The notes under the pieces: model-generated
Database searches by the model: none
Told to the model about the DNA's origin: nothing
Seen by the model: only the letters and a program-made list of their open reading frames with translations
Shown here: one piece after another, positions 16,831 through 20,965 of the stretch
Numbering within the stretch: position 1 is the first letter of the stretch
How the letters are laid out: each line of letters opens with the position of its first letter
Position numbers and translations under genes: made by a program
IMG/VR virus record: IMGVR_UViG_3300046010_003661
Location: 1-24,622 of that record
DNA from: a virus
Direction: 5' to 3' (one strand)
DNA length: 24,622 bases

Positions 16831-16878
16831 TACCCCCCAAGTATCCCCCCAAGTTGCCCCCCAAGTTACCCCCCAAGT
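16831..16878. repeat. Four tandem 12-bp repeats with C6 tracts (G-quadruplex-capable on the minus strand)
   Basis: Units TACCCCCCAAGT, ATCCCCCCAAGT, TGCCCCCCAAGT and TACCCCCCAAGT lie directly end to end; the last ten bases are identical in all, only the first two vary. The minus strand therefore has four G6 tracts with 6-nt loops. Such C-rich sequence stands out sharply in this AT-rich genome. Confidence 0.9.
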
Positions 16879-18324: not shown

Positions 18325-18575
18325 CCAACGACCTAAAACTCATAGCCTCGACGGCAATCCTCCCGGTACTTGCCGACTTCCTCGAAGACCTAAACGAAGA
18401 CAAAGCCTTTAGAACCGATATGAAGGTAGTTACACTAAACCTCATCAGTCAAATACGAAAACTCGATGAAAGGATCATGAAACACGCATCGAACGAAACA
18501 AGCGAACAACAAGTAAACATACAAATAGCATTTAGGCAATGGTTAAAGTCAGCGCAATCTACGGAAGAAAATTAA
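18321..18575 (+). CDS. Helical early protein of unknown function
   Basis: An 84-residue protein, largely helical (LASTAILPVLADFLEDLNED-type hydrophobic/acidic spacing near the start; NLISQIRKLDERIMKHA at about 40-56). It starts in an ATGA overlap and its end overlaps the DnaA-like gene by 37 nt. Not recognised. Confidence 0.65.
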   Translation: MTNDLKLIASTAILPVLADFLEDLNEDKAFRTDMKVVTLNLISQIRKLDERIMKHASNETSEQQVNIQIAFRQWLKSAQSTEEN

Positions 18576-18979
18576 AGGACATAAAGTCCTACCTACCGAA
18601 AAGGAACTTTTACACCATGCACGAGTTCTTTTTAGTGTGTCCGTGTTCGCATGAGTCACTAAAGGAAGCAAACCGACTTCGTCAGCTCATGCAGTGGCGA
18701 CAAGTTGGTATGGTTTGGGCTACGCTCTCAGGCTTTTCACTAACGGAAGCGGGGAAAATGTTTAACAAGAACCACGCAACGGTTATACATTCCCAAGAAA
18801 TGGTTAAGTTAGCACTGGAAGGTTACCACCCCGAACTATTAGAAAAGCTAAACGAGGTTTTGGAGTGCATCGAAATCACGAACGCTCACGCCAATGATTA
18901 CAATACGGCTTTGATTATTTCGGCACGTAGGATTGAGAACTTGTTGAAAACTCGTTACAAAAGATTAAACCAAATTTAG
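18539..18979 (+). CDS. DnaA domain-IV-like DNA-binding protein
   Basis: A 146-residue protein. Residues 58-90 (MVWATLSGFSLTEAGKMF, then NKNHATVIHSQE) match the helix-turn-helix of the C-terminal domain of DnaA, including the signature H-x-T-V-I-H-S with His79. The AAA+ domain of DnaA is absent, so it would bind DnaA boxes or phage iterons without ATP-driven opening. It stands at the end of the early small-gene cluster, before the initiator and helicase genes. ATG 18539 overlaps the preceding gene by 37 nt; ATG 18617 is a possible shorter start that keeps the domain. Its 3' end contains the first box of a putative late promoter. Confidence 0.75.
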   Translation: MVKVSAIYGRKLKDIKSYLPKRNFYTMHEFFLVCPCSHESLKEANRLRQLMQWRQVGMVWATLSGFSLTEAGKMFNKNHATVIHSQEMVKLALEGYHPELLEKLNEVLECIEITNAHANDYNTALIISARRIENLLKTRYKRLNQI

Positions 18980-18998
18980 AATATAGTACTTATATTAG
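18966..18998 (+). promoter_or_regulatory. Putative phage late promoter, copy 4 (TAAACCAA-N13-TACTTATATTAG)
   Basis: TAAACCAA at 18966-18973 (one change from TTAACCAA), exactly 13 nt, then TACTTATATTAG at 18987-18998. No start codon follows at the distance seen in the other three copies; instead a structured segment ending in a terminator follows. This supports a transcriptional rather than translational role for the element. Confidence 0.55.
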
Positions 18999-18999
18999 T

Positions 19000-19096
19000 A
19001 GACAAGTTCGCTTCCACATTATAGAACTTTAAGGTGTTATTTAGCCCTATTAATCAGTAGCGACGTGGAAGCCGTGAAAGTTAATGGGGCTTTTTT
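19000..19096 (+). ncRNA. Candidate structured small RNA, about 97 nt, with interleaved stems
   Basis: Between a promoter-like element and a T run lie GCTTCCAC (19010-19017) pairing perfectly with GTGGAAGC (19065-19072), and AGCCCTATTAA (19043-19053) pairing with TTAATGGGGCT (19081-19091) with one wobble. The order of the four strands is that of an H-type pseudoknot. A smaller hairpin is possible at 19021-19027 with 19034-19040. No open frame of note fits inside. The 5' end is estimated from the promoter and is uncertain. It may instead be only an elaborate terminator or leader. Confidence 0.5.
19043..19096 (+). terminator. Terminator closing the candidate small RNA unit
   Basis: The 11-bp stem AGCCCTATTAA / TTAATGGGGCT (one T-G wobble) has a long 27-nt loop and runs straight into six T (19091-19096). 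The ATG at 19084 lies inside the 3' stem strand, which argues against it as a gene start. Confidence 0.75.
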
Positions 19097-19116
19097 ATTT
19101 ATTTAAAACTTGCATT

Positions 19117-19320
19117 ATGGCAGTTAGAAAAATTTTTACGGGTAGTGACGATAGTACTACTGGAGATTATGAGTTATGTGTTTATGAAGCGGAAGGAAGT
19201 ATTTTAATTGAAATAGATTCTAAGGATTTGCCACCCGCATACATTAACTTGGATTTAGATACTTTGAATGAATTAATTATTGAACTGAAACGCATAGAAA
19301 TTTTAATAATGAAACAATGA
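19117..19320 (+). CDS. Small protein of unknown function
   Basis: A 67-residue acidic protein from ATG 19117 (MAVRKIFTGSDDSTTGDYEL). The upstream ATG 19084 is inside a terminator stem and is rejected. The sequence alternates short strands (YEAEGSILIEIDSKD) with a C-terminal helix (LNELIIELKRIEILIMKQ). It ends in an ATGA overlap with the initiator gene. Small proteins of this type often lead phage replication operons. Not recognised. Confidence 0.6.
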   Translation: MAVRKIFTGSDDSTTGDYELCVYEAEGSILIEIDSKDLPPAYINLDLDTLNELIIELKRIEILIMKQ

Positions 19321-19991
19321 ACGGATATGAATTAAGCCGAAAGTGGTTTGACTGGTGTTTTGAGAACCCTGAGCGCATTTCCCCAAACCATACAGCACTT
19401 TATTTTTTTATTATTGAACACTGCAACCGATTGGGATGGAAGGCTAAATTTGGTCTTCCTACCACAATGGTTAAGGAAGCAATAGGAATACGCTCATACA
19501 ATACATACATAAATACGTTGAATGATTTAGTTGATTTCGGGTTTGTAGTAATGATTGAAAAAAGTAAAAATCAATACTCAAGCAATATAGTTGCCCTATC
19601 AAATTTTGACAAAGCACATGACAAAGCACTTGATAAAGCATTAATAAAGCACACGACAAAGCAATGTGAAAGCAATAGTAGTATAGTTAAACAAGAAACA
19701 ATAAACAAAGAACAAGTACACCCACTCGTTATTTATTTAAATACTAATTGTAAACAAGTGCAAGGTTTAGCCTCACCAATAAACAACTTGGACGCTGAAC
19801 GTCTGCTAGTTGAATTTGACAAACACGACCTAGTAGAAGTGTTTATGGCTATGGAAAATACTAAAGACCTTAAAAAGAAATACAACAGTGCTAATTTGAC
19901 GGTTAGGTCTTGGATAAAAACACGACAAAAAAACAATAGTACCTTCGGACAAATTAAACAACAAGACAAATTCAAAGCAGCATGGCAATAG
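19317..19991 (+). CDS. Winged-helix replication initiator (lambda O / DnaD-like)
   Basis: A 224-residue protein. Residues 1-95 look like a winged-helix domain of phage replisome organisers (ALYFFIIEHCNRLGWKAKFG, PTTMVKEAIGI, TLNDLVDFGFVVMIEKS). Residues 97-116 (FDKAHDKALDKALIKHTTKQ) come from a DNA repeat array. The C-terminal part (LDAERLLVEFDKHDLVEVFM to TVRSWIKTRQ) resembles the helical C-terminal domain of DnaD-type loaders. It overlaps the helicase gene by 10 nt, the usual initiator-helicase pairing. The expected role is binding the phage origin and loading the helicase. Confidence 0.7.
   Translation: MNGYELSRKWFDWCFENPERISPNHTALYFFIIEHCNRLGWKAKFGLPTTMVKEAIGIRSYNTYINTLNDLVDFGFVVMIEKSKNQYSSNIVALSNFDKAHDKALDKALIKHTTKQCESNSSIVKQETINKEQVHPLVIYLNTNCKQVQGLASPINNLDAERLLVEFDKHDLVEVFMAMENTKDLKKKYNSANLTVRSWIKTRQKNNSTFGQIKQQDKFKAAWQ
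19607..19665 (+). repeat. In-gene iterons, five units of about 12 bp (TGACAAAGCACx)
   Basis: Units TGACAAAGCACA, TGACAAAGCACT, TGATAAAGCAT, TAATAAAGCACA and CGACAAAGCAAT follow each other without gaps; a degenerate sixth may follow. AT-rich sequence lies downstream. Iterons inside an initiator gene mark the origin in lambda O, so this is an origin candidate. Confidence 0.75.
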
Positions 19992-20965
19992 AAGGATTTA
20001 AAATAACTCAACCCGAAGACGTATTTAACCAACTCAAAACATACCGAGACAAATACCACGACAAGGGTAAGTATTTAGGGTTTGAAAGTTTAGATAAACA
20101 CTATTCAATGCAGTTAGGAAATTGTACGGATTGGACGGGCTTTCCGATGAGTGGTAAAACACAAGTATTAATGGAGGTGCTAGTTAACTCGTCAATGTTT
20201 TATTCGTGGAAACATTTGCTTTACTTTCCTGACGTTGGAAACAATGTCGAAATCATTGCAGACCTATTGCACAAAAAGACGAGCAAGTCATTTGACCCAA
20301 ACAAGCCAAACACGATTACGGACAAAGAAATTGAAATTAACTTGGAATGGGTTCTATTACATTTTTACGTACTAACCAAAACGGACGTAAAAGCAAAGAT
20401 GACACCGATGGCATTTTGGGACTTTGCAGCTGAACTAAAAAAGACCGTTGGACTTGAGACGGCAAGTATAGATAGTTGGAAAGATATGAACCACCCTTAC
20501 GACCAATTTGGAGGATATGCGACTTATTTGGAGTTTGTCCTTCCGTATCGTAACCACATTGCCGAAGAAAACAATTTGCACCTTCACACGATTATACACC
20601 CAAAGTTGACCGAGAAAGAAAACGGAAAAAGAAACCCTCCCGGGCCCTACGACCTCAAAGGGGGCTCGGAATGGTTTAATAGTGGCAAGTGCATGATAAC
20701 TGTACACCGACACGATGTAATGGAAAACAAGGCTACGATAATTTTCAATAAGATTAAGCCCCGTTCCGTTGGTTCAATAGGTGAAATAGAACTTTTCTTC
20801 GACTTAAATTCACTTACTTACTACGAACTGGACGCAGTTAACCCGAGTAATTTACAAAAGCGTTACGCATCCCCAAAGGGTCAAACAATAAGCAGTAAAT
20901 TAGTACCCGAACTTAATGTGATTATACCACCAACGAACCTATTTATTAACGACTTACCTTTTTAA
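19982..20965 (+). CDS. DnaB/Twinkle-like replicative helicase (RecA-type ATPase)
   Basis: A 327-residue protein with Walker A GFPMSGKT (53-60), a Walker B-like ASIDSWKDM (D164), TIIHPK (203-208, Lys208 after His-Pro) and YDLKGGSEWFN (223-233), then a TVHR segment with a possible arginine finger. This order matches the helicase domain of the DnaB/Twinkle superfamily 4; the primase part found in T7 gp4 is absent and no separate primase is visible. It overlaps the initiator gene and is followed 1 nt later by the GIY-YIG-like gene. The likely role is unwinding at the phage fork. Confidence 0.75.
   Translation: MAIEGFKITQPEDVFNQLKTYRDKYHDKGKYLGFESLDKHYSMQLGNCTDWTGFPMSGKTQVLMEVLVNSSMFYSWKHLLYFPDVGNNVEIIADLLHKKTSKSFDPNKPNTITDKEIEINLEWVLLHFYVLTKTDVKAKMTPMAFWDFAAELKKTVGLETASIDSWKDMNHPYDQFGGYATYLEFVLPYRNHIAEENNLHLHTIIHPKLTEKENGKRNPPGPYDLKGGSEWFNSGKCMITVHRHDVMENKATIIFNKIKPRSVGSIGEIELFFDLNSLTYYELDAVNPSNLQKRYASPKGQTISSKLVPELNVIIPPTNLFINDLPF

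Follow-up and report, generated by a model that had tools for sequence, protein, structure and literature searches.

The early operon of the lambdoid phage HK022 opens with a leader, the put RNA, which makes RNA polymerase ignore downstream terminators. Attenuators that use an intrinsic terminator, and ribosomal-protein leaders such as the L10 leader (RF00557), place a terminator in the 5′ leader ahead of an operon. The onset of replication is a central decision in phage infection, and its control in Bacteroidota phages is little known. The DNA analyzed here (the window), a 24,622-nt stretch of IMG/VR record IMGVR_UViG_3300046010_003661, is part of a Bacteroidota phage and carries portal, Erf, NinG, and DnaA-C-like genes. 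A sequence-only reading of the window had described a 97-nt noncoding unit at 19000–19096, between the DnaA-like gene and the replication genes, as a candidate small RNA that could be expressed late and act on replication genes. The unit is present there. It resembles put in being a predicted structured RNA of two hairpins with which an early transcript into replication genes would begin, and it resembles the attenuators and the L10 leader in having a putative terminator in a 5′ leader position ahead of an operon.

Comparison with related phages indicates that the 97-nt gap holds a kissing-loop pseudoknot, and we consider the structure real because the comparative evidence is decisive. The whole element (19000–19096, + strand, as are all features below) was delineated from a covariance-model match and counted structure, and it reads as a kissing-loop leader RNA with an intrinsic terminator at its end. 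A promoter −7 box, TATATTAG, lies at 18991–18998, and the 5′ end of the RNA is expected at about 19001–19004. The first hairpin, P1, is formed by AAGTTC (19004–19009) and GAACTT (19024–19029) and encloses in its loop the 5′ arm of the kissing helix (GCTTCCAC, 19010–19017). An A/U-rich junction, J (TAAGGTGTTATTT, 19030–19042; 13–15 nt in the majority of relatives), leads to the terminator hairpin P2, in which AGCCCTATTAAT (19043–19054) pairs with GTTAATGGGGCT (19080–19091). Beneath the apical loop of P2 is a short stem, P3, made of GCG (19060–19062) and CGT (19073–19075). The P3 loop carries the 3′ arm of the kissing helix (GTGGAAGC, 19065–19072), which pairs with the 5′ arm over 8 bp. A T run, TTTTTT (19091–19096), comes directly after P2, giving the G/C-containing hairpin and U run of a predicted intrinsic terminator.

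Much of this anatomy had been anticipated. The perfect 8-bp stem of the sequence-only reading is the kissing helix, its 11-bp stem is P2 (11–12 bp as found here, with TTTTTT after it), and the third hairpin for which it had left room exists as P1. The two stems that it had placed in pseudoknot order, the kissing helix and P2, do interleave, and both are conserved by covariation. P3 is a fourth stem that it had not described. In a descriptor scan, the site had the best score in the window (61), and none of 20 dinucleotide-shuffled versions of the window scored above 54. The covariance model matched 19005–19094 with 81.7 bits and an E value of 3.7e-13 (E values are rough, and the window is among the sequences used to build the model). 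Single-strand folding of the site was unremarkable (z = −1.0) because such folding cannot model a pseudoknot.

Relatives were retrieved using the neighboring ATPase and DnaA-like proteins, so that gaps were picked by synteny and not by structure. The majority of gaps 3′ of the DnaA-like gene have the same architecture with altered sequence. The sequence-only reading had staked its proposal on homologous gaps keeping both pairings, and these synteny-chosen gaps do so through compensatory changes, including changes in the loop–loop helix. Examples of kissing arms in relatives are CTTCCAC/GTGGAAG, CATCCTAC/GTAGGATG, GCTCTCAC/GTGAGAGC, CTCTCCAC/GTGGAGAG, GTGCAG/CTGCAC, GGGCAG/CTGCCC, and GTAGCGG/CCGCTAC. 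Across the four helices in an 18-sequence alignment, 96.6% of cells are paired and double changes occur at 22 of 28 pairs, counts that come from related sequences and are not independent events. The covariation score of this alignment, which was drawn partly from matches of our own scanner that requires a kissing helix, was 0.725 and fell to 0.23 on shuffling and to no more than 0.13 on sliding. P1 has 92.8% of its cells paired and double changes at all six pairs in the 18-sequence alignment. The kissing helix has 99.3% of its cells paired, double changes at six of eight pairs, and no G-U pairs. In an independent pattern-scan set, where P1 is largely fixed by the search pattern, P2 and P3 covary strongly, and P2 has 97.6% of cells paired with double changes at 10 of 11 pairs. 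For P3, 100% of cells are paired.

The scanner's bias toward kissing helices is shared neither by the synteny-chosen gaps nor by a covariance model from which the pseudoknot had been left out. Across 87 sources, this pseudoknot-blind model gave 55 strong matches, every one of them on the expected strand, and it retrieved homologs that keep the pseudoknot. An exact pairing of 7–9 bp was present in 42 of 43 distinct type-A matches (6 bp in the other), mostly as the P1-loop/P3-loop helix, whereas chimeric controls mostly reached 4–5 bp. Mutual information calculated without an assumed structure ranks pairs from P1, P3, P2, and the kissing helix at the top, and it revealed no other well-paired covarying columns within the element, meaning no alternative antiterminator pairing. 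In an independent pattern scan of IMG/VR, all 73 loci taken to the model search, among the matches listed, match over the full length. Several subtypes share a common topology with unlike sequence. There are 44 kissing sequences, as scored, among 117 distinct elements, all of which keep the T run (at least 5 T in the 8 nt after P2), and the unpaired letters are only moderately conserved. Two loci (L028 and L044) retain the structure with an interrupted T run. As read on the + strand, P2 includes G-U pairs and therefore fits an RNA rather than a DNA structure. A DNA-level structure such as a single-strand origin is disfavored by these pairs, the promoter, and the T run.

The motif TAnnTTTG is the primary-sigma promoter motif of Bacteroidota (PMC7366714). 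It is the family consensus, TATATTTG, of the −7 box, lies 4–6 nt before P1 in the majority of relatives, and is found in 69 of 74 pattern-scan elements among the matches listed. No −33 box stands out upstream of the element when the upstream regions of relatives are compared, and the stop codon of the upstream gene is usually 13–30 nt before P1. The sequence-only reading had rightly noted a promoter-like element before the unit, at 18991–18998. It had also described that element as one otherwise found before virion genes, and this does not hold: the extended form has a single match in the window with up to three mismatches allowed, none elsewhere before virion or other genes, and shorter versions occur at chance frequency. 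A shared late-promoter element was thus rejected. The late expression that had been proposed also lost its basis, with the extended element occurring once in the window and the −7 box of relatives being an ordinary primary-sigma motif.

Downstream of the T run, a 20-nt gap (19097–19116) precedes the ATG of the next gene; it is an A-rich translation start region with no TAnnTTTG. This distance is 17–21 nt in the majority of 131 distinct elements, and an A is present at −11/−12 in 84%–88% of them, as in flavobacterial start regions. A promoter-like motif was found between the T run and the ATG in two of 76 cases (first set), both of which involve a skipped small open reading frame (ORF) or a long gap.

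The gene upstream of the element (18539–18979) codes for a DnaA C-terminal-domain-like protein (Pfam PF08299, above cut-off). The first gene downstream is a small ORF (19117–19320; 67 amino acids from the ATG at 19117) that matches no family. It is followed by a replication-initiator-like gene (19317–19991) and a RecA-fold primase/helicase-like ATPase (19982–20965; phrog_5482 and primase/helicase phrogs), which served to find relatives. In relatives, the first large gene downstream usually encodes a replication initiator, with the RecA-like ATPase coming next. The N-terminal types of these initiators are unrelated and include DUF6291, Lin1244-like, Phg_2220_C, and others, and a PrimPol/helicase-type protein is found instead in four contigs (L142, L173, L140, and L186). 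The element is sometimes followed first by a small ORF, an HNH gene, or (in L186) a gene for a DNA methylase. Placement of the element is independent of initiator type. Where genes are inserted between the DnaA-like gene and the initiator (L084, L101, and phage Danklef), the element remains at the head of the initiator operon, and we therefore assign it to the replication module and not to the DnaA-like gene.

Other features of these neighborhoods were recorded. About five to six 12-bp direct repeats (TGACAAAGCACA-like) lie at 19607–19674 inside the initiator-like gene; by their resemblance to the origin iterons of lambda O type, they are likely a replication origin. Four 12-bp tandem repeats (TACCCCCCAAGT) occupy 16831–16878, in a noncoding gap after an exonuclease-like gene. 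Initiators with unrelated N-termini (the gene at 19317–19991 and those of L060, L010, L059, L055, L007, and L066) have a common short tail, KAAWQ, KAPWS, KFAWQ, KAPWD, or similar, possibly a peptide onto which the RecA-like ATPase or a helicase docks. In six contigs (L006, L013, L018, L127, L170, and L194), genes starting MxEIWKxxPxxxxYQVSNLGRxKS are found directly after the element and look like HNH/NUMOD4 homing endonucleases, as if borrowing its expression signals.

Homologs of the element were identified in well over 100 Bacteroidota phage contigs. Among cultured phages, it is present but unannotated in Flavobacterium phage FCL-2 (Ficleduovirus), at about 37482–37585 of NC_027125 and before an initiator-like gene; in Polaribacter phages Danklef_1 and Freya_1 (Forsetiviridae), with the Freya copy before an initiator-like gene; and in Polaribacter phage P12002L (Incheonvirus), before a gene annotated "replication protein." In Flavobacterium phage FCV-1, inspection by eye revealed a similar structure, whose T run is weaker, upstream of the initiator region. 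When whole records were searched with a model that misses other subtypes, 15 of 20 had a single copy and none had two. Two copies are present in L013 and in L186. Those in L186 are of different subtypes (810–899 and 2587–2666), one before a methylase-type gene and the other before a primase/helicase-like gene. No such element precedes the initiator in L032, L068, and L075. Three loci with a related ATPase were found in bacterial genomes, and one of them, a Chlorobiota metagenome-assembled genome (MAG) contig, has a plausible element. A relative of the window phage's ATPase occurs in a MAG labeled Robiginitomaculum sp. (L122), possibly a mis-binned phage contig.

We propose with moderate confidence that the element is a cis-acting 5′ leader of the replication operon, whose built-in terminator (attenuator) would gate the operon and release an RNA of ~95 nt. 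This is our first choice because of the element's fixed place at the operon head, the 17–21-nt spacing to the ATG, and the near absence of promoters in between. Across homologs, the fold, promoter, and T run are conserved, and the element keeps a fixed place heading the replication modules. Its position is that of a 5′ leader, and it may control the operon that follows.

For such a leader, we infer termination, read-through, an effect of the kissing loop on termination, and control by a factor. Transcription would start directly before P1, which would fold first. As the P2/P3 region emerged, its apical loop would pair with the P1 loop over 8 bp; this contact would pre-organize an otherwise large terminator loop and may speed its closure. 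With P2 closed, the polymerase would stop at the T run and leave the ~95-nt RNA. Transcription of the replication genes would have to pass the terminator, whether it began at the element's promoter or farther upstream, because the T run and stem are conserved and no promoter of their own follows. The initiator or PrimPol/helicase genes, which start ~20 nt on and lack a promoter, would thus be transcribed only by polymerases reading through. By terminating a share of transcripts, the leader would limit or time the replication proteins and thereby set, or conditionally gate, the dose and timing of replication initiation, and perhaps those of transcription toward a likely origin inside the initiator gene. 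On the lambda model, the same transcript may also activate this origin. A factor that breaks the kissing contact would, we conjecture, switch the operon on. With no covarying antiterminator fold within the element, a classical two-state riboswitch or attenuator is unsupported, and a protein, kinetics, or a fixed leak would have to account for any regulation.

Several points count against a leader. A plain terminator needs no kissing loop, and the element is not indispensable, as a few relatives have none before the initiator. In a few cases, the gene next to the element is of another kind (HNH genes, and the DNA methylase gene in L186), and compact phage genomes could put a stand-alone RNA gene this near to the next gene. 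Such a gene is possible, and we entertain it tentatively: the terminated product of ~95 nt would itself be the functional molecule and act in trans on a protein or an RNA, of either phage or host, to which it binds. Expression of the genes that follow would depend on leaky read-through. Its own promoter, a 5′ end locked in P1, and its own terminator would suit this role, as would one stable fold for which no alternative pairing was found, the structure kept despite the interrupted T run in L028 and L044, and the presence in contig L186 of two copies that belong to different subtypes. The fixed distance to the next ATG and the constant attachment to replication modules speak against a trans-acting RNA, as does the only moderate conservation of unpaired letters. 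The loops that might act as seeds are engaged intramolecularly and vary freely, with 44 kissing sequences.

A leader that acts on stability or translation, in which the 5′ pseudoknot shields the mRNA of the replication genes against degradation and the T run carries little weight, appears improbable. P1 begins 4–6 nt after the −7 box, so that the 5′ end of the RNA would be base-paired, and the translation start region comes directly after the element, but the T run present in 117 of 117 distinct elements would be needless for mere stability. We consider it highly improbable that the loops pair between molecules to form an RNA dimer, chain, or ring, as in phi29 packaging RNA (pRNA): every copy has two mutually complementary loops, the kissing helix is strictly Watson-Crick, and an estimated straight P1-kissing-P3-P2 rod (about 29 bp plus an internal loop) would make the 13–15-nt junction tight within one molecule, but a bent complex or a side-by-side arrangement of the helices would leave the junction enough length, there is no linkage to a packaging gene, and rod and junction lengths are uncorrelated either way (some P1 lengths were over-extended by the scanner).

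We tentatively suggest that kissing-loop terminators of this kind form a new class of regulatory RNA in phages. They would gate the replication modules of many Bacteroidota phages whatever their replication proteins, with the loop–loop contact itself deciding between stopping and reading on and possibly sensing a host or phage factor. An RNA that stays put while initiator types are swapped suggests a general layer of control. The proposal is testable now because the element is present in cultured phages of Flavobacterium columnare and Polaribacter. For RNA biology, the element is also a naturally occurring, compact kissing-loop fold in which covariation is abundant.

We searched databases and the open literature for described counterparts. 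Rfam 15 gave no matches at the curated cut-off for the window and 17 related loci, and the best matches at permissive thresholds were far below cut-off. No tRNA or tmRNA was found in the window, and no described RNA of this kind and no infection transcriptomes were found in the open literature. By these searches, the element is undescribed and absent from Rfam. A type III toxin-antitoxin RNA, which consists of tandem pseudoknot repeats beside an endoribonuclease toxin gene, was rejected: the site has a single copy and no tandem repeat, and its neighbors match no toxin family. Like the Pistol ribozyme, the element has a 5′ hairpin whose loop pairs to one strand within another hairpin, but its 3′ arm is in the apical loop and not between P2 and P3, and it has no Rfam match. 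The 6–8-bp kissing loops of ColE1 RNA I/RNA II are likewise near replication functions; the loops of the element are both in one transcript, and no antisense partner is encoded at the site. The phi29 pRNA, another phage RNA roughly 100 nt long, likewise has loops that complement each other, with variable sequence and conserved topology, whereas this element is linked to replication instead of packaging and ends in a predicted terminator. In contrast to attenuators and ribosomal-protein leaders, no competing antiterminator fold was found within the element, which scored 15.6 bits with L10_leader against a cut-off of 44. It is set apart from HK022 put by description: put has no terminator end, whereas the second hairpin of the element is the predicted terminator, and loop–loop pairing defines its fold.
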